Assembly: GCA_947503105.1 (NCBI GenBank)
Contig: CANNCM010000006.1
Location: 1 to 64,000 of the forward strand
Direction: 5' to 3'
DNA from: an uncultured Flavobacteriaceae bacterium
Lineage (GTDB): Bacteria > Bacteroidota > Bacteroidia > Flavobacteriales > Flavobacteriaceae
DNA: 64,000 nt
In this document: positions 1-21,588 of the stretch, piece by piece
Layout of the letters: each line of letters opens with the position of its first letter
Numbering within the stretch: position 1 is the first letter of the stretch
Translations under genes and position numbers: made by a program
The notes under the pieces: generated by a model
Databases searched by the model: none
Told to the model about the DNA's origin: nothing
What the model saw: the letters and a program-made list of their open reading frames with translations, nothing else

Positions 1-975
1 CCTTTGCCAAATACCATTGACGGCATTACTGGAACTTGGACACCCGCGTTTAATGCCAATACAACAACAGATTATACTTTTACACCTGATGCAGGACAAT
101 GTGCCACAACCCCTGCGCCTATTCAGTTGGTCGTGAATCCTTTGGTAACGCCAATAATTCCAACATTAAATCCTATTTGTGAGGGTGATCCTAACCCTCT
201 GCCAAATACCATTGACGGCATTACTGGAACTTGGACACCCGCGTTTAATGCCAATACAACAACAGATTATACTTTTACACCTGATGCAGGACAATGTGCC
301 ACAACCCCTGCGCCTATTCAGTTGGTCGTGAATCCTTTGGTAACGCCAATAATTCCAACATTAAATCCTATTTGTGAGGGTGATCCTAACCCTTTGCCAA
401 ATACCATTGACGGCATTACTGGAACTTGGACACCCGCGTTTAATGCCAATACAACAACAGATTATACTTTTACACCTGATGCAGGACAATGTGCCACAAC
501 CCCTGCGCCTATTCAGTTGGTCGTGAATCCTTTAGTAACGCCAATAATTCCAACATTAAATCCTATTTGTGAGGGTGATCCTAACCCTTTGCCAAATACC
601 ATTGACGGCATTACTGGAACTTGGACACCCGCGTTTAATGCCAATACAACAACAGATTATACTTTTACACCTGATGCAGGACAATGTGCCACAACCCCTG
701 CGCCTATTCAGTTGGTCGTGAATCCTTTGGTAACGCCAATAATTCCAATATTAAATCCTATTTGTGAGGGTGATCCTAACCCTTTGCCAAATACCATTGA
801 CGGCATTACTGGAACTTGGACACCCGCGTTTAATGCCAATACAACAACAGATTATACCTTTACGCCTGATGCAGGACAATGTGCCACAACCCCTGCGCCT
901 ATACAGTTGGTCGTGAATCCTTTGGTAACGCCAACTTTCACAGCAGTAAGTCCTATTTGTTCTGGTGATACAATA
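1..975 (+). repeat. Five tandem 195-bp coding repeats
   Basis: Units begin at 1, 196, 391, 586 and 781, a period of exactly 195 bp (65 codons). They differ at only a few positions, for example near 199, 534, 750 and 858; the fifth copy diverges after about 933. Near identity including third codon positions points to recent duplication or gene conversion. More copies probably lie upstream of the window. Confidence 0.95.
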
Positions 976-1812
976 GCACCTTTGCCAACAACTTCAAATA
1001 ATGGCATAACAGGGACTTGGGATCCAGCGACAATAGATAACACAACCACAACAATCTATACGTTTACACCAAATAGTGGTACTTGTATTGTAGAAACAAC
1101 ACTTGAAATAACCGTATTACCACAAGTAACTCCAACATTCTCAATAGATGATATTTGTATTGGTGAAACGATAGGGGCATTGCCAACGTTTTCTTTAGAA
1201 GGTATTACCGGAACCTGGAGTCCTGCAGTCAATAACTTAGCGACTACAACATACACCTTTACTCCAGACCCAGGACAGTGTGCAAATGCAACAACTGAAA
1301 CTGTTGAAGTGAACCCAATCAATACGCTGGCGGTTTCGACAGAAAATACTTCAGAGCCTTTTGATAGTAATCAAATTATTGAAGTTACAGTGAGCGGTGG
1401 GAGTGGTAATTATGAATATCAATTGGATGGTGGAAGTTGGCAAACAAATTCTATTTTTCAAAATGTCGTTGGATGTCAAGAGCATACAATAAAAGTGAGA
1501 GATGCTGAGGGTTGTAGCAACGAACCAGAATCTGTTGTTACTATTTTATCGTACCCTAAATTCTTTACCCCTAATGGGGATGGATTCAATGATTTTTGGA
1601 ATATAAAATGCCTAAGAAACCGTACAGGTTTGGTGACGATATTTGACCGCTTTGGAAAGCTCCTCAAACAATTCAAAACTTCAAATGCAGGCTGGAATGG
1701 TGTTTATAATAATGCGCTTATGCCTACAAGCGACTATTGGTTTTTGGTGACGTATTACGATGAAAATGGAAATGAAAAAGAATTCAGATCGCATTTTACA
1801 TTAAGACGCTAA
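1..1812 (+). CDS. Secreted repeat protein with T9SS type B sorting domain (5' truncated)
   Basis: The reading frame is open at base 1, so the N-terminus and signal peptide lie outside the window. The visible 603 codons begin with five almost identical 65-residue modules (each with ITGTWTPAFNANTTTDYTF and an ICEGDPNPLP-type linker), then two diverged copies of the same module, then a SprB-like repeat (about residues 440-515, with VSGGSGNYEYQLDGG). The last 87 residues, from YPKFFTPNGDGFNDFW to the end, are a gliding-motility-associated C-terminal domain (CHU_C, type B sorting signal), which targets proteins through the type IX secretion system to the cell surface or medium. The modules each carry two Cys. 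A role as a surface adhesin or matrix protein is inference; the secretion route is established for the family. Confidence 0.85.
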   Translation, partial: PLPNTIDGITGTWTPAFNANTTTDYTFTPDAGQCATTPAPIQLVVNPLVTPIIPTLNPICEGDPNPLPNTIDGITGTWTPAFNANTTTDYTFTPDAGQCATTPAPIQLVVNPLVTPIIPTLNPICEGDPNPLPNTIDGITGTWTPAFNANTTTDYTFTPDAGQCATTPAPIQLVVNPLVTPIIPTLNPICEGDPNPLPNTIDGITGTWTPAFNANTTTDYTFTPDAGQCATTPAPIQLVVNPLVTPIIPILNPICEGDPNPLPNTIDGITGTWTPAFNANTTTDYTFTPDAGQCATTPAPIQLVVNPLVTPTFTAVSPICSGDTIAPLPTTSNNGITGTWDPATIDNTTTTIYTFTPNSGTCIVETTLEITVLPQVTPTFSIDDICIGETIGALPTFSLEGITGTWSPAVNNLATTTYTFTPDPGQCANATTETVEVNPINTLAVSTENTSEPFDSNQIIEVTVSGGSGNYEYQLDGGSWQTNSIFQNVVGCQEHTIKVRDAEGCSNEPESVVTILSYPKFFTPNGDGFNDFWNIKCLRNRTGLVTIFDRFGKLLKQFKTSNAGWNGVYNNALMPTSDYWFLVTYYDENGNEKEFRSHFTLRR

Positions 1813-14066: not shown

Positions 14067-14094
14067 AACAAAGGGTGCAATAGCACCCTTTGTT
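14067..14094 (-). terminator. Hairpin terminator at end of aromatic operon
   Basis: A perfect 12-bp stem (14067-14078 with 14083-14094, loop AATA) directly abuts the DAHP synthase stop codon. The T-rich side on the minus strand is short, so termination may be partial and allow read-through into rsgA. Confidence 0.7.
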
Positions 14095-15177
14095 TTATCC
14101 TTTCAAAATTTGTTTTTGATGATTAATGGATTCTTGGTGAATTGCTTTAAAGAGTTTTAAAATAAACTCTTCGCTAAGGTTGTGTTGTTCGCCTTCGAGG
14201 ACCATTTTACCCAAAATTTCATTCCATCGTTTGCTTTGCAAAACAGCTACATTTTTTTCTTTTTTGAGTGCTCCAATAGCTTCAGCAACTTTCATACGTT
14301 TACCTAAAGTTTCCAAAAGCTGATTATCTACTACATCAATTTGTGCTCGTAATTTTTGGAGCTCACTAGTATAGTCTGCTTCTGTTGTACTTACATTACG
14401 GATTTTTAAATCCTTGGTGTACTGAATTAGTGTGCTAGGTGTAATTTGCTGTGCAGCATCACTCCATGCGTTATCGGGATCAAAATGAGTTTCAATCATC
14501 AAACCATCAAAGTTTAAATCCAATGCTGTTTGACATACATCAAAAACCATATCGCGTTTTCCAGTGATGTGAGAAGGATCGTTGATGAGTGGTAGGTCTG
14601 GAAATTTCGTTTGTAATTCTATAGCCAATTGCCACTCTGGATTATTTCTATATTTTGATTTTTCATAGGTTGAAAACCCTCTGTGAATGACACCAAGATT
14701 TTTGATATTTGCAGATGCCAATCGCTCTACAGCACCAAGCCAAAGTGCAAGGTCTGGATTGACTGGATTTTTAATCAAAACAATCTTATCGGTACCTTCT
14801 AGAGCATCGGCAATTTCTTGAACAATAAACGGGCTTACTGTTGAGCGTGCGCCAATCCAAAGCAAATCGATATCGTGTTCTAGCGCCAACTCAACGTGTG
14901 CTCTATTGGCCACTTCTGTTGCCGTTTTCAGTCCTGTTTCGGCTTTTACTTTTTGCAGCCATTTGAGTCCCAAAGCACCTACCCCCTCAAAATTTCCAGG
15001 TCGTGTTCTTGGCTTCCAAATACCAGCACGAAAATAACTGACATCTGAATCTTTGAGTTCGTGAGCAATTTTTAAAACTTGCGCTTCTGTTTCGGCACTA
15101 CACGGCCCTGCGATCACTAGCGGATGCTCTAATTGCAAATCATCTAGCCATGTTCTAAGTTGTTTACTATTTTCCAT
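14095..15177 (-). CDS. Bifunctional DAHP synthase / chorismate mutase (type II)
   Basis: 360 residues. The N-terminal part (about 1-260) is a 3-deoxy-7-phosphoheptulonate synthase of the AroG/KdsA-like class, with VIAGPCSAETEAQ, FRAGIWKPRTRPGNFEG, LIKNPVNPD and DPSHITGKR. The C-terminal part (about 270-355) is an AroQ chorismate mutase (LQKLRAQIDVVDNQLLETL, then RMKVAEAIGALKK). The enzyme therefore supplies both the first shikimate-pathway step and the chorismate-to-prephenate branch. In such fusions the mutase domain often serves as the allosteric module. It is the last gene of the pheA-led operon. Confidence 0.95.
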   Translation of the reverse strand: MENSKQLRTWLDDLQLEHPLVIAGPCSAETEAQVLKIAHELKDSDVSYFRAGIWKPRTRPGNFEGVGALGLKWLQKVKAETGLKTATEVANRAHVELALEHDIDLLWIGARSTVSPFIVQEIADALEGTDKIVLIKNPVNPDLALWLGAVERLASANIKNLGVIHRGFSTYEKSKYRNNPEWQLAIELQTKFPDLPLINDPSHITGKRDMVFDVCQTALDLNFDGLMIETHFDPDNAWSDAAQQITPSTLIQYTKDLKIRNVSTTEADYTSELQKLRAQIDVVDNQLLETLGKRMKVAEAIGALKKEKNVAVLQSKRWNEILGKMVLEGEQHNLSEEFILKLFKAIHQESINHQKQILKG

Positions 15178-15187
15178 AGTGTCTTGT

Positions 15188-16039
15188 TTAAGAAATTCCT
15201 TTTAGTATTGTTTTTATATAATTTGTATTCTTCATTTCGTTTCGAATGGCCTCAAAATTCTCAGACTCCATCAATTGTTTAAAGTGTGTTAAATTTTGAA
15301 TGTATTCGTCTAATGTTTCAATAACATTTGTTTTATTTTGTTCAAAAATAGGCGCCCACATTTCGGGCGAGCTTTTTGCGAGGCGCACTGTAGATTCAAA
15401 TCCACTACCAGCCATATCAAAAATATTACTTTCGTTTTTTTCTTTTTCAATGACAGTTTTCCCAAGCATAAATGAACTGATATGCGATAAATGAGACACA
15501 TACGCAATATGTTTGTCATGATCTCTAGCATTCATATGGCGAATACGCATACCAATAGATTCAAAAATTGCAATGACCTTTTTGGATAACTCTAAATCTG
15601 TTTTTTCAATATCACAAATGATATTTGTTTTGTTTTGAAACAACCCCAAATGTGCTGCTTTTGGTCCTGAAAATTCTGTCCCTGCAATAGGATGATTAGC
15701 CAAAAACTGTGAACGCTTTGGATGACGATCCGCAATCCTACAAATGGCTTCTTTTGTAGAGCCCATGTCCACAATAACACCTTGTTTTGGGATAAGGGAC
15801 AAAAGCGTTGGCAATAGTTTTAAAGTCGCATTTACAGGAATTGCTAAAAGCACCATATCGGCATTTTTTACATCCTCTAAAACTGCTTTTTTATCAATTA
15901 ATCCTAACTCTAAGGCGGTTGCCAGATGGGCCTCATTCTGGTCAATACCATAAATAACAACATCCGATTTTAGAGCTTTTAAATCTAAAGCAAAACTTCC
16001 TCCAATGAGTCCTATTCCTATGATATATACGTTTCTCAT
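15188..16039 (-). CDS. tyrA: Prephenate dehydrogenase
   Basis: 283 residues. It converts prephenate to 4-hydroxyphenylpyruvate with NAD(P)+ for tyrosine synthesis. The Rossmann motif GIGLIGGS is at 8-15, DMGSTKEAI follows the NAD fold, and the catalytic His is in the FLANHPIAGTEFSGP block. No C-terminal ACT domain is present. Its ATG overlaps the end of the upstream aminotransferase gene by 4 bp, and it is followed 10 bp later by the DAHP synthase-chorismate mutase gene. Confidence 0.95.
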   Translation of the reverse strand: MRNVYIIGIGLIGGSFALDLKALKSDVVIYGIDQNEAHLATALELGLIDKKAVLEDVKNADMVLLAIPVNATLKLLPTLLSLIPKQGVIVDMGSTKEAICRIADRHPKRSQFLANHPIAGTEFSGPKAAHLGLFQNKTNIICDIEKTDLELSKKVIAIFESIGMRIRHMNARDHDKHIAYVSHLSHISSFMLGKTVIEKEKNESNIFDMAGSGFESTVRLAKSSPEMWAPIFEQNKTNVIETLDEYIQNLTHFKQLMESENFEAIRNEMKNTNYIKTILKGIS

Positions 16040-17181
16040 GTACTGCGTTTTATGGCTTCTTTTATAGATGCTTCATTGGCACACAAAGAAAAACGTACAT
16101 AGCCATTTCCGTTGGATCCAAAAATAGTTCCAGGGGCTACAAATATATTTTTCTTATAAAGTAATTCATCAATAAAATACTCAGAATCAACGCCTTGTGG
16201 TAGTTTTGCCCAAACAAACATCCCTGATGTTTTTGGATCAAAATCACAACCTAATTGCGTTGCTAATTGCCAAACAAGTTGTCGACGTTTTTCATAAATA
16301 GTATTCAATTCCTTAAACCATTCTTTTGATGATTTTAGCGCCTCAATAGCACCCTTTTGAACGCCATAAAACATTCCAGAATCCATATTACTCTTTACCT
16401 TAATGACATTTTCTATGTGATGGGCCGCGCCAGAAAGCATACCTACACGCCAGCCTGCCATATTGAACGTTTTACTCAGTGAATTTAATTCTAAGCACAC
16501 CTCTTTAGCGCCTTCAAAATTGAAAATACTTGTTGGGTTGTCATTCAAAATAAAACTATAAGGATTGTCATTTATCAACAAAATCTTGTGTGCTTTTGCA
16601 AATTGGATCAAGGCCGTCAAATGTGCTTTTGAAGCTTTGGTTCCTGTTGGCATATGTGGATAATTTACCCACATGAGCTTGACTTTGGATAAATCCATTT
16701 TTGACAATTCGTCAAGATTTGGTTGCCATTGTGATTCGGATTTTAAATCATAAAAAATTGGCGTTGCCCCCATGAGTTTTGTAACGGAGTTATAGGTTGG
16801 ATAGCCCGGATTGGGAATAAGCACAGCATCCCCTTCATTGAGGTAAGCCATAGAAATGTGCATAATTCCTTCTTTACTTCCCATGAGTGGTAAAATTTCA
16901 GATTCAGAATTTAATTCTACACTATAATTATTTATATAAAACTCAGAAATTGCCTTTCTAAGTTCCGGCAATCCTTGATAACTCTGGTATTTATGAGCAG
17001 TTCTTGCAGAAAGACTTGTGTTGAGAGCTTCTACTACTTGTGGTGGTGGTGGCAAATCGGGGCTGCCAATACCGAGATTGATCACTGGTTTTCCGTCTGC
17101 AAGAAGTGCACGTACTTCTTTCAATTTTCTTGAAAAATAATACTCTTCAACGGTATGTAATCGGCGGGCTACACTACTCAT
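16036..17181 (-). CDS. PLP aminotransferase class I/II, aromatic operon
   Basis: 381 residues, fold type I aminotransferase. Seen: INLGIGSPDLPPPP near the N-terminus, the PGYPTY and NYPHMPTG substrate loops, and the PLP Lys in ELNSLSKTFNMAGWRVGM. Sandwiched between pheA and tyrA with 4-bp overlaps on both sides, it most likely transaminates phenylpyruvate and 4-hydroxyphenylpyruvate to Phe and Tyr. The family alone would also allow Asp, Ala or LL-diaminopimelate aminotransferase, so the substrate is inferred from context. Confidence 0.9.
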   Translation of the reverse strand: MSSVARRLHTVEEYYFSRKLKEVRALLADGKPVINLGIGSPDLPPPPQVVEALNTSLSARTAHKYQSYQGLPELRKAISEFYINNYSVELNSESEILPLMGSKEGIMHISMAYLNEGDAVLIPNPGYPTYNSVTKLMGATPIFYDLKSESQWQPNLDELSKMDLSKVKLMWVNYPHMPTGTKASKAHLTALIQFAKAHKILLINDNPYSFILNDNPTSIFNFEGAKEVCLELNSLSKTFNMAGWRVGMLSGAAHHIENVIKVKSNMDSGMFYGVQKGAIEALKSSKEWFKELNTIYEKRRQLVWQLATQLGCDFDPKTSGMFVWAKLPQGVDSEYFIDELLYKKNIFVAPGTIFGSNGNGYVRFSLCANEASIKEAIKRST

Positions 17182-17999
17182 TTTTTGGCGTTTTCATATT
17201 CTCCTAAAACTTTAAATTCTTCGGCCATTATGGTCATGATGGCCTTTGCTTTGTTATAATCTTCAAAAGCATCAAATGTAACATCTACAAAAAAAGCATA
17301 TTTCCAAGGCGTATCAATTTTTGGTAAGGATTGAATTTTTGTTAAATTTAATTTACAATCGCTCATCACATTTAACATTGCAGCCAAACTTCCTCGCTTA
17401 TGATCTAACATAAATTTCAAAGAAGCTTTATTGATTTTTGTTGATGAATTTTGATTTCGTTCAACAATTACAAAACGTGTTTCGTTCTGCGGTATGGTTT
17501 GAATGCTTTTCTCTAAAATTTTTAATTGATAAATTTCTGAAGCGGTTTCGCTTGCAATGGCTGCAATTCCAAAAAGTTGTTGGTTATGAATTCGTCTCGC
17601 CACTTCTGCGGTGTCGCTATCCTCTACCAATTTGATATGTGGGTATTGATCAAAAAAGGCTTTACATTGCAACAATGCCATTGGATGCGAGTGGACTTCT
17701 TTTATGTCATTTATTTCTTGCCCAGAAAGAGCCATCAAATTATGCTGAACATCCAAATAATATTCTCCAGTTATATGAAGCGCGTTGGAATCGATTAATG
17801 CATAATTTGGAATTATTGAGCCTGCAATAGAATTTTCTAGTGCCATGATTGCTGCATCAGAATTGTGTTTGACAAGACTACTGACCACCTCATTGAATGT
17901 TAAAAAAGGTAATGTTTCAACCGCCTCTAAAAAATAATGTTTAGAAACAATATCATGAAACGATCCTTGAATTCCTTGTATGGCTACTTTTTTTATCAT
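17178..17999 (-). CDS. pheA: Prephenate dehydratase
   Basis: 273 residues. It converts prephenate to phenylpyruvate. The catalytic TRF motif is in NETRFVIVE and the substrate-binding region includes ALENSIAGSI. A C-terminal ACT domain (about 195-270, LKFMLDHKRGSLAAML) would bind Phe for feedback inhibition; the usual ESRP region reads KIQSLP. It is first in the operon, and its ATG follows directly on the T-run of an attenuator, with no space for a conventional ribosome-binding site. Confidence 0.95.
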   Translation of the reverse strand: MIKKVAIQGIQGSFHDIVSKHYFLEAVETLPFLTFNEVVSSLVKHNSDAAIMALENSIAGSIIPNYALIDSNALHITGEYYLDVQHNLMALSGQEINDIKEVHSHPMALLQCKAFFDQYPHIKLVEDSDTAEVARRIHNQQLFGIAAIASETASEIYQLKILEKSIQTIPQNETRFVIVERNQNSSTKINKASLKFMLDHKRGSLAAMLNVMSDCKLNLTKIQSLPKIDTPWKYAFFVDVTFDAFEDYNKAKAIMTIMAEEFKVLGEYENAKK

Positions 18000-18031
18000 A
18001 AAAAAAAATCTCGGCTTTTGGACCGAGACTT
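18000..18031 (-). terminator. Attenuator terminator before pheA
   Basis: On the minus strand TCTCGG and CCGAGA form a 6-bp stem (18024-18031 region against 18009-18014), extendable by a G.T pair, followed by nine T that run into the pheA ATG. Its 5' arm is also complementary over 8 bp to 18066-18073, inside the leader-peptide coding region, giving a competing antiterminator. Confidence 0.85.
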
Positions 18032-18054
18032 ACATTGAATATTTTTGTTTAAAA

Positions 18055-18132
18055 TTATACAAAAAAAGTCTCGTTCTTTTCGCTAAAAAAGAAATAAAAC
18101 CAGCTATAAGTTGTATAATTTGCGTACTTCAT
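18055..18132 (-). CDS. Aromatic amino acid leader peptide
   Basis: A 25-codon ORF with ATG at 18130-18132 and TAA at 18055-18057, directly upstream of the attenuator. It encodes a peptide with six Phe, four Tyr and one Trp, concentrated in TTYSWFYFFF (codons 7-16) and a second FF at 23-24. Codons 20-23 (bases 18066-18073) contain CGAGACTT, the exact complement of the 5' arm of the terminator. A ribosome stalled on the aromatic run would leave this segment free to pair and would block the terminator. One that reaches the stop codon would cover it. This is classical Phe/Tyr attenuation logic controlling pheA, the aminotransferase, tyrA and DAHP synthase. Confidence 0.88.
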   Translation of the reverse strand: MKYANYTTYSWFYFFFSEKNETFFV

Positions 18133-18148
18133 TATATGTAATAAGTGG

Positions 18149-18178
18149 CTAAAGTAGATATTTTTTTTTCAAAACAAA
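18149..18178 (-). promoter_or_regulatory. Promoter of the aromatic operon
   Basis: TTTG (18075-18078 within 181xx, i.e. 18175-18178) and TACTTTAG (18149-18156) on the minus strand, 18 bp apart, fit the Bacteroidota consensus. Transcription would begin near 18143, about 10 nt before the leader-peptide ATG. Confidence 0.6.
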
Positions 18179-18289
18179 ATTCAATTTTATTTTTTTTGAA
18201 GTTCTCTGGTAATTTTCAATGATTCTGAAATAAATCAAGGTTAAATTGAAGAATAGTTATTTTTTAGACTATTTTTTGAAATTCCTTAA

Positions 18290-19036
18290 TCAATCTAAAA
18301 AGATTAAAGATCCTGTGTAGAGTTCAGTTATATCTACATTGGGGGGCTCATTGACAGAAATTAAATGCCCCGTGCTTCGTAACACGCCACTCAAAGATTG
18401 AAGTGGGTGTATGGTCATATCGTGGCTACTGCGATGGGAAATTGTAACGTCTTGCGCCAAAAGATTAGCTCCAAAAAAAGCAGTTGTTCCAGAGTAAAAC
18501 CCAACAAAAAGCGCATCTGTACGCCCAGAAATAAAAAATTGAGAACTATTGTTTGATGTGATTCTAATGCTTTGATTCTGAATTTTTAAATTGAAATCCC
18601 CTGAACTGATATTGTCTTGATTAAAATTTTCGGAAATTAATTTAAGATTGGGAAAGGTCAATACTCCTATAGATTTTATGGTGTATTGTGAATTACTTCT
18701 AATTTCTGTAAGATTTGGGGTCGTTACAATAATTTTTGTTGGCGCATAGCTGCGCACCCAATTGCATTGATTGTGGTCGTTGAGCGTCAGCAAACCATTA
18801 TGAACAACATATTGTATATCAGAAATGAGATGCGCTCCAGATTCAATTTTGAGATGATATTCTGGTCCTTGATTGATAATTAATTCAATGTTTTCATTAA
18901 CCAAAATACGATCAAATGAATCAACATTTTGTTCTATTATTGTCAAATCTCCTGCCGTTTGAATACAATCCGATATGTTGTCTTTTGCGCAAGAGAACAT
19001 TATAAAAATGATACCATAAAAAAATGCTTTTCTCAT
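18290..19036 (-). CDS. GIN-domain (DUF2807) lipoprotein
   Basis: 248 residues. Lipoprotein signal with Cys at residue 16 (IIFIMFSC). The rest is a right-handed beta-helix-like putative auto-transporter adhesin head GIN domain: regular short repeats such as ENIELIINQGPEYHLKIESG, LTEIRSNSQYTIKS and LKLISENFNQDNI, in which a hydrophobic-polar pattern recurs about every 20 residues. Members are common in Bacteroidota and mostly uncharacterised. Its start overlaps the stop of the PagL-like gene by 4 bp, so the two are co-transcribed. Confidence 0.8.
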   Translation of the reverse strand: MRKAFFYGIIFIMFSCAKDNISDCIQTAGDLTIIEQNVDSFDRILVNENIELIINQGPEYHLKIESGAHLISDIQYVVHNGLLTLNDHNQCNWVRSYAPTKIIVTTPNLTEIRSNSQYTIKSIGVLTFPNLKLISENFNQDNISSGDFNLKIQNQSIRITSNNSSQFFISGRTDALFVGFYSGTTAFFGANLLAQDVTISHRSSHDMTIHPLQSLSGVLRSTGHLISVNEPPNVDITELYTGSLIFLD

Positions 19037-20219: not shown

Positions 20220-20229
20220 TCACCGACTA

Positions 20230-20282
20230 ATTGAGGATAAATTTGATCTGATTGCAACCTCATTAAAAAAAGCTAAAGCAGT
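20230..20282 (+). ncRNA. SAM-II-type riboswitch upstream of metK
   Basis: The region folds as the SAM-II H-type pseudoknot. P1 is TGAGG (20232-20236) with CCTCA (20258-20262). P2 is CTG plus TTGC (20248-20255) with GCTAAAGCAG (20272-20281), leaving the unpaired U of GCUAA that contacts the sulfonium in SAM-II. The conserved strings ATTGCAA just before the 3' strand of P1 and AGCTAAA after an A-rich linker match the aptamer as I remember it. The downstream gene makes SAM, so it would act as feedback control. SAM-V shares the core and is the main alternative. Confidence 0.82.
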
Positions 20283-20313
20283 ACAACTCCCTTTAGCACG
20301 TTGCACTTATTTT

Positions 20314-20336
20314 TCCTCATAAAATAAATTTATGAG
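20314..20336 (+). promoter_or_regulatory. Start-codon hairpin of metK
   Basis: CTCATAAA (20316-20323) pairs perfectly with TTTATGAG (20329-20336) across a five-base loop, placing the metK ATG in a stem. TCCTCA (20314-20319) is also complementary to TGAGGA at 20232-20237, the 5' strand of the riboswitch P1, so aptamer folding could decide whether the start codon is masked. Confidence 0.6.
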
Positions 20337-21588
20337 TTACTTATTTACATCTGAAAGCGTTTCTGAAGGCCACCCAGATAAGGTTGCCGATCAAATAAGC
20401 GATGCTATAATTGATCATTTTTTGGCTTTTGATCCACAATCCAAAGTCGCCTGTGAAACTTTAGTGACAACAGGTCAAGTTGTTTTGGCTGGTGAAGTCA
20501 AATCCAAGACATATTTGGATGTTCAACAAATAGCTAGAGACACCATCAATAAAATTGGCTACACCAAAGGCGAGTATATGTTTGATGGCAACTCCTGTGG
20601 GGTATTGTCTGCCATTCACGAGCAATCCGACGACATCAATAGAGGGGTCGATAAAGAAAATCCCGAAGATCAAGGGGCTGGAGATCAAGGGATGATGTTT
20701 GGCTACGCTACCAACGAAACTGAAAATTTTATGCCATTGGCATTGGATCTTTCTCATTTCATTTTGAAAGAATTGGCACAATTACGACGCGAAAACAATG
20801 AGATTACGTATTTGCGTCCAGATTCTAAAAGTCAAGTCACTATTGAATACAGCGATGATAATGTGCCATTACGTATTGATTCTATTGTAATTTCAACCCA
20901 ACATGATGATTTCTCTGATGATGAAAAAGAAATGCTTAACACCATTGAAAAAGACATCAAAACAATATTAATTCCTCGAATAATTGCCAAATTACCAAAG
21001 GCCACACAAGCGCTATTTAGTGATAATATAACTTATCACATTAATCCAACAGGGAAGTTTGTCATTGGTGGCCCTCATGGTGATACTGGACTTACAGGGC
21101 GTAAGATTATTGTAGATACTTACGGCGGAAAAGGCGCTCATGGTGGAGGTGCATTTTCGGGAAAAGATCCCAGTAAAGTAGATCGTTCTGCGGCCTATGC
21201 AATGCGTCATATTGCCAAAAACATGGTCGCTGCTGGAGTGTGTTCAGAAATTTTGGTCCAAGTCAGCTATGCCATTGGTGTGGCCGAACCTATGGGCGTT
21301 TTTGTAGATACCTATGGCACCTCCAATGTGGATTTTAACGATGGTGCTATTGCGCAAAAAATTACCAAACTTTTTGATTTGCGCCCTGCTGCCATTGAAA
21401 AGCGTCTAAAACTTCGCACCCCTATGTACAGCGAAACTGCCGCTTATGGCCATATGGGACGTACAAACGAAACTGTAGAAAAAGTATTTTACTTGCCTAA
21501 TGGCGAAAAACGAGTGTTAGATGTCGAACTTTTTACTTGGGAAAAATTGGATTATGTAGAAGCCATTAAAACCGCTTTTGGGCTTTAA
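20332..21588 (+). CDS. metK: S-adenosylmethionine synthetase
   Basis: 418 residues. It makes SAM from methionine and ATP with release of phosphate and pyrophosphate. Signatures: [20 protein letters not shown] at the N-terminus with His14, [10 protein letters not shown], the P-loop-like [16 protein letters not shown], and [11 protein letters not shown]. It is longer than the 384-residue E. coli enzyme, as other Bacteroidota MetK proteins are. A SAM-II-type riboswitch precedes it and a 13-bp terminator hairpin follows. Confidence 0.97.

Follow-up and report, generated by a model that had tools for sequence, protein, structure and literature searches.

The pheL-pheA and trpL-trpE attenuators of enterobacteria are the classical leader-peptide systems. 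Related leaders may also be covered by a comparative attenuation survey that Lopatovskaya, Seliverstov and Lyubetsky reportedly published in 2010. A passage of a paper from 2010 states that its authors knew of no leader-peptide systems demonstrated beyond Proteobacteria and Actinobacteria, and adds a case from Firmicutes (PMC2965389). Leader peptides of amino acid genes have been described in Actinobacteria and Firmicutes and, as far as the available passages go, follow the same principle outside Proteobacteria, in other phyla (PMC1262725, PMC11857589, PMC5794164).

For Bacteroidota, excerpts from one study mention short ORFs of Bacteroides that are reminiscent of leader peptides (PMC7366714), and short leader genes near genes were counted in Bacteroidetes, among others, in what the excerpted text treats as a context of reinitiation (PMC4833913). 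The passages available from an account of his genes in the superphylum mention attenuation for enterobacteria only (PMC8305728). In 2021 "strong clues" of leader-peptide attenuation at amino acid operons were reported for Flavobacterium psychrophilum, together with a structured 5' element before pheA, and also before hisG, which is kept in other genera; the leader sequence, the pairing of the arms, their spacing and phylogenetic counts are absent from the main-text passages of that report (PMC9723704). The literature searched, which comprised listings and passages of main texts, thus offered hints, and no worked-out pheA attenuator of Bacteroidota was found in it.

Here we describe the leader region of pheA in a stretch of 64,000 nucleotides from an uncultured Flavobacteriaceae bacterium (contig CANNCM010000006.1, positions 1 to 64,000), which is called the window in the following. 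This region is very probably a ribosome-mediated transcription attenuator which senses charged Phe-tRNA and Tyr-tRNA, and probably Trp-tRNA, and controls an operon for pheA, an aminotransferase, prephenate dehydrogenase and DAHP synthase/chorismate mutase. As in pheL-pheA and trpL-trpE, the control codons match the product of the operon, antiterminator and terminator exclude each other, and stalling versus arrival at the stop codon would be the switch. In a comparison of layouts rather than of sequences, the leader is set apart from these two systems by its mixed run of Phe, Tyr and Trp codons and by the lack of a Shine-Dalgarno sequence. In addition, unlike in the enterobacterial leaders, arm 2, which forms the 5' strand of the antiterminator, is contained in the leader ORF, as it is in 150 of the 185 loci detected in this study.

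Materials and Methods

The pheA gene was matched in 277 of 299 genomes of the family, and loci were taken from among the matches listed. The collection comprised 30 listed loci, 80 hand-picked loci (about one per genus), loci of 30 hand-picked low-scoring genomes, 23 loci from genome contigs, further loci from the genus, and the locus of the window itself. Their orientation was set by tblastn. Removal of identical 150-nt upstream sequences reduced 173 sequences to 162, almost all of them belonging to Flavobacteriaceae, the family of the window, with some genera present twice. Since the pheA loci are related, the counts reported below are not independent trials. Loci of the order and class scan were a subset of the matches found.

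The detector accepted an ORF that starts with ATG and has six or more aromatic residues and an aromatic share of at least 30%, if a terminator with a T-run lay within 110 nt and if the leader end could pair with the terminator arm by 6 bp or more, including three G/C. After the 162 upstream sequences had been counted the detector was slightly widened, and the wider form detected 185 of 227 distinct upstream sequences. Promoters and start signals were analyzed in those 182 of the 185 detected loci that had enough upstream sequence. For the co-change test only Watson-Crick pairs were counted, and arm 2 was placed by distance, not by pairing. In the folding model the ribosome covered 13 nt, the value for E. 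coli, starting with the first nucleotide of the A-site codon, and the RNA that was folded was the part that has emerged before arm 4.

Results

The aromatic operon of the window lies on the minus strand. Its first gene, pheA, encodes prephenate dehydratase (17178..17999; Pfam PF00800, E 1.8e-52). The gene of a class I/II aminotransferase (16036..17181; PF00155, E 3.3e-64) overlaps pheA by 4 nt and is itself overlapped by 4 nt by the prephenate dehydrogenase gene (15188..16039; NCBIfam NF006307 with 378 bits at a cut-off of 295, and PF02153). The last aromatic gene encodes a DAHP synthase-chorismate mutase fusion (14095..15177; PF00793 and PF01817). These Pfam and NCBIfam matches agree with the initial annotation of the DNA, which had proposed a four-gene aromatic operon including a DAHP synthase-mutase. 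The enzymes of the operon make Phe and Tyr by way of DAHP and chorismate. Directly 3' of the fourth gene a hairpin was found by eye (AAGGGTGC-N4-GCACCCTT, 14071..14090, minus strand); its T-run is poor, and it is a possible end of the operon. It is followed by a gene for the GTPase RsgA. Upstream of the leader, a DUF2807 gene is located on the same strand (18290-19036). Gene order was scanned in 133 loci, where every gene found was co-directional with pheA. All four genes occurred in the order of the window in 97 loci, and the dehydratase and fusion genes without the two middle genes in 17; the remaining loci showed fewer genes, some stretches being too short to tell.

The leader ORF (18132..18055, minus strand) encodes the peptide MKYANYTTYSWFYFFFSEKNETFFV*. 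Its 25 codons include 11 aromatic ones, namely six Phe, four Tyr and one Trp, exactly as initially claimed, and it is enriched in codons for the operon's own products. A gap of 55 nt separates its end from pheA. Codons 11-16 (Trp Phe Tyr Phe Phe Phe; 18085..18102, minus strand) are the stall site predicted by the folding model. The same stretch is possibly also arm 1, a partner of arm 2. Arm 2 (CGAGACTT, 18066..18073, minus strand) lies within codons 20-23 and is fully complementary to AAGTCTCG (18024-18031), so that the antiterminator of precisely 8 bp and the position of its arm were correctly described before. Arm 3 (18022..18031, minus strand), found by sequence and terminator scan, contains this 3' strand of the antiterminator and the 5' strand of the terminator. 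Thus, antiterminator and terminator are mutually exclusive, arm 3 being common to both.

Arm 4 (18006-18015), found in the same way, is followed by a T-run that reaches the start codon of pheA, both together spanning 18000..18015 on the minus strand. An intrinsic terminator is therefore present by sequence between the leader and the first gene. It consists of AAGTCTCGGT-CCAAAA-GCCGAGATTT and subsequent T residues, and it is the sole terminator-like site in 17900-18400, where 0.1 were expected. The T-run ends at 18000 and the ATG of pheA starts at 17999; accordingly, the claim that the terminator runs into this ATG is correct. The 6-bp stem claimed for it is found as an uninterrupted Watson-Crick core (TCTCGG/CCGAGA), while the scan, which allows G-T, extends the stem to 10 pairs. 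The leader RNA of the window (151 nt) folds with a z-score of -3.39. At equilibrium the terminator has an energy of -12.3 kcal/mol versus -7.6 kcal/mol for the antiterminator. The terminator was the more stable structure at equilibrium in 176 of 185 loci, so that antitermination has to come about kinetically, by a capture that precedes the synthesis of arm 4.

A promoter-like -33/-7 pair of the Bacteroidota kind (18149..18178, minus strand) is found 16 nt before the leader ATG. It reads TTTG-N18-TACTTTAG, with TTTG at 18178-18175 and TACTTTAG at 18156-18149, and matches the promoter postulated earlier, under a pattern that derives from the -33/-7 promoter consensus of Bacteroidota and was loosened to fit TTAG after the window sequence was known. 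This post hoc pattern, TT(T/G)(G/C)-N17-24-TAnnTT(T/A)G, was present before 114 of 182 leaders compared to 49 of 3640 base shuffles. A sigma-70 scan around the window leader, with one site found and 2.4 expected, was unsuited to the phylum and brought no gain. A Shine-Dalgarno-like tetramer preceded the leader ATG in only 2 of the 182 loci. An A at position -3 was observed in 142 of them and also in the window. The frequency of A at -3 agrees with the adenine rule for this position in F. johnsoniae, as given in passages of PMC6847099.

The family comparison that the initial annotation had proposed showed that the device is kept although arm sequences and codon phases drift. The whole device, composed of aromatic leader, terminator and competing pairing, was detected at 150 of 162 distinct pheA upstream sequences by rules that were fixed after family loci had been inspected. 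It occurred in none of 810 dinucleotide shuffles of these sequences, and once upstream of 559 other long ORFs of the same loci. This sole control match is the pheA leader of locus L152, which an inserted ORF separates from pheA. The ORF (643-1236, plus strand) is transposase-like, and we take it to be a REP-associated transposase; it constitutes a natural separation of attenuator and operon. L152 is consequently also one of the 12 loci missed by the detector. Eight further misses still had leader and terminator when read by eye. Two of them (L015, L034) were missed because the detector ignores non-ATG starts, their aromatic ORF appearing to start with GTG, and in six (L006, L036, L060, L122, L130, L165) the pairing was below the threshold. 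All 185 leaders detected with the wider form contained Phe and Tyr codons, and 129 contained Trp codons.

In the order and class scan 43 of 73 further loci scored. All 24 loci that came from the window's family were among them. Outside the family 19 of 49 loci scored, many with unlike arm sequences and a few weak when read by eye (L214, L217, L219). Many class-level loci did not score with the detector. The leader was not detected at four loci of family f4 (L234, L237-L239) and in the four symbiont-sized genomes tested (about 0.6 Mb; L230-L233), which keep pheA. The expectation of the initial annotation that related genomes with pheA carry such a leader thus holds for 150 of 162 upstream sequences, but neither for L023, L069 and L172, where the detector and reading by eye found none, nor, outside the family, for the 30 of 49 loci at which none was detected. 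At five class-level loci (L220-L224) aromatic-rich short ORFs precede pheA that were rejected by the detector; these loci may use another layout.

Co-change of the arms was analyzed in the 185 detected loci, which contain 92 distinct arm pairs (for example CGAGAC/GTCTCG, CGGGAC/GTCCCG, CCGGGT/ACCCGG and GGATTG/CAATCC). When G-U was allowed, arms of unlike loci also paired strongly (1216 of 3000). As this test discriminated poorly, the Watson-Crick test was performed. At least six Watson-Crick pairs of arm 2 with its own arm 3 were found in 125 of 185 loci, a figure biased upwards by the pre-selection of the 185 for a pairing of at least 6 with G-U allowed. With arm 3 of an unlike locus this was the case in 51 of 2000 combinations, and after shuffling in 49 of 1850. 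The codon phase of the arm varied, with 99, 47 and 39 loci in the three phases (98/5/3 for the class GTCTCG and 18/7/5 for the class TCCCG). Hence, the end of the peptide is not what is conserved, and the varying phase would fit selection on the RNA rather than on the peptide. Codons, pairing and spacing are the conserved features, and no one fixed sequence is.

The distance between the aromatic run and arm 2 is narrowly set. In 176 of 185 loci the last core aromatic codon begins 10-15 nt upstream of arm 2, compared to 405 of 3700 cases after permutation of the residue order. Aromatic residues occupy 93-99% of the places four to seven codons upstream of arm 2, 17% at the third codon before it, and 0-2% at the two codons before it and at the codon where the arm starts. 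They recur four codons past the arm start in 64 of 125 sufficiently long leaders, at a position where a stalled ribosome should be of no use.

When the last aromatic codon occupied the A site, the folding model gave an antiterminator probability of at least 0.5 in 182 of 185 loci. One codon later this was obtained in 101 loci, and two codons later in 6. For the window the modelled probability of the pairing between arms 2 and 3 was 0.99 at codon 16, 0.71 at codon 17 and 0.05 at codon 18, which is in line with the stall window at codons 12-16 suggested before. A footprint two bases longer gave 0.87, 0.26 and 0.00 at the same codons. From codon 19 to the stop codon the probability was 0.00. The model thereby reproduces the claim that a ribosome at the stop codon covers the arm, yet by geometry only, because the modelled ribosome bars all RNA upstream of its leading edge from folding.

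In 104 of the first 120 of the 185 loci, arm 2 paired with upstream sequence more than in codon-shuffled controls. In the model of the window this upstream pairing of arms 1 and 2 did not beat the pairing of arms 2 and 3 without a ribosome. Without a ribosome the window leader antiterminated, with a probability of 0.92 before arm 4 emerges. Consequently, a protecting hairpin of arms 1 and 2 is not clearly supported.

Leaders of similar kind were found at other amino acid genes of the window's genome. Upstream of hisG (contig C2, L246; ORF -142 to -70 relative to the gene) there is a His-rich leader, MKIVNLIHHHVHTGPQASCLCME, which has both a terminator and a competing pairing, and upstream of trpE (contig C3, L247; ORF -112 to -55 relative to the gene) a Trp-rich leader, MNIKKQNTWWWATRSRLS, with a terminator. 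Sets of 30 loci listed per search plus the window's genome were scanned for a leader that is combined with a terminator and with 5 bp or more of pairing. Among the matches listed, these were present at 30 of 31 hisG and 29 of 31 trpE loci, in a scan that was looser than the one for pheA (three or more His or two or more Trp sufficed, whatever their share of the ORF) and had no shuffled control. A few of the pairings were weak (L278, L293). The His run stops 15-18 nt short of its arm in 28 of 30 leaders and the Trp run 20-22 nt short of its own in 25 of 29. A single spacing for all leaders was accordingly rejected, and the ruler of 10-15 nt holds for the aromatic leader only. The trpE layout is also unlike that of pheA in that the partner of a recurring TCGTGA is the loop of the terminator together with the beginning of the 3' side. 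Upstream of thrA in one locus (L251) a Thr/Ile-rich ORF ending in ...PTTSIITMTIITPLGFFVI was observed, which contains the hairpin ACCCC-TTT-GGGGT and a T-run before its stop codon. Upstream of ilvD neither a terminator nor a leader-like ORF of the expected kind was found.

Discussion

What was observed of the leader, namely its parts and how far they are conserved, how they are spaced and how the arms change together, is the basis for its assignment as an attenuator. In the mechanism which we infer from them, a ribosome supplied with ample aromatic amino acids would trail RNA polymerase through the aromatic run and cover arm 2 in codons 20-23. Arm 3 would then pair with arm 4, and transcription would end just before the pheA ATG. 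If charged aromatic tRNA were short, the ribosome would halt at codons 11-16 and leave arm 2 exposed by the width of one footprint. This arm could now catch arm 3 before arm 4 emerges, and the polymerase would enter the operon. Stalling, termination and its relief would take place in the cell in this manner, and one of the three amino acids may dominate the response.

The initial annotation had named the device translational attenuation. This name is wrong, since the best reading is transcription attenuation by the ribosome. Under translational control, as in erm- or tetQ-type leaders, the hairpin near the pheA ATG would hide the start site, and translation of the leader would open or close it. 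The T-run of the window abuts the ATG, so that the hairpin is within the initiation region, and 49 of 185 loci have a hairpin that ends at most 12 nt before the gene. However, it ends at least 40 nt, and up to 239 nt, before the gene in 55 of the 185, which favours termination over hiding of the start site, and the start codon is not in the stem. The passing of the detector by 150 of 162 upstream sequences with a T-run also speaks for termination, though the T-run is not independent evidence in these hits because the detector requires it. On account of the distances between hairpin and gene, translational control was rejected as the main mode, and we regard it as improbable.

The much alike peptide core within the family would suit a small protein with its own function, in which case the terminator would merely part its ORF from pheA. 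Against this, the arm and hence the end of the peptide occur in all three codon phases, and the 19 scoring loci outside the family have a rewritten peptide in which aromatic residues and pairing are kept. An own function of the peptide is thus very unlikely. A structured leader with a terminator would also be expected of a metabolite riboswitch or a T-box controlling the operon, but no Rfam family reached its gathering score at 18000-18180, and it is codons, pairing and spacing that are kept, not one fixed sequence. With no Rfam match at the leader the riboswitch was rejected, and control of this type is highly implausible. Chance is just as implausible, even though A+T-rich DNA yields Phe/Tyr-rich short ORFs, Phe being encoded by T-rich codons, and the terminator could belong to the DUF2807 gene upstream on the same strand: it was rejected by the shuffle and other-gene controls, and the spacing and co-change results likewise oppose it.

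The sole Rfam match in the window lies elsewhere: a SAM-II riboswitch (20227-20286, plus strand, 61.9 bits) precedes a methionine adenosyltransferase gene (20332-21588) at a distance of 45 nt. Its host phylum is said, in passages of PMC6847099, to be without Shine-Dalgarno sites that could be hidden.

The reading of the pheA leader as a ribosome-mediated transcription attenuator has a forerunner, as attenuation at amino acid operons of Flavobacterium was suggested before (passages of PMC9723704). For the breadth of the pheA attenuator and its spacing rule no earlier description was found in the sources searched, some of which were available as passages. It appears fairly likely that ribosome-mediated transcription attenuation is a general and ancient control of amino acid genes across Bacteroidia (phe/tyr/trp, his, trp and perhaps thr), which operates without Shine-Dalgarno starts and with the antiterminator arm placed in the leader ORF exactly one footprint past the last control codon.

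Such a control would provide an annotation rule for short ORFs before amino acid operons. The tight distance from the aromatic run to the arm may report the leading edge of the ribosome from sequence alone, and the set of attenuators in many genera would be a ready assay for the coupling of transcription and translation without Shine-Dalgarno starts. If the proposal is true, ribosomes of Bacteroidota must trail RNA polymerase closely enough to decide on termination within tens of bases.
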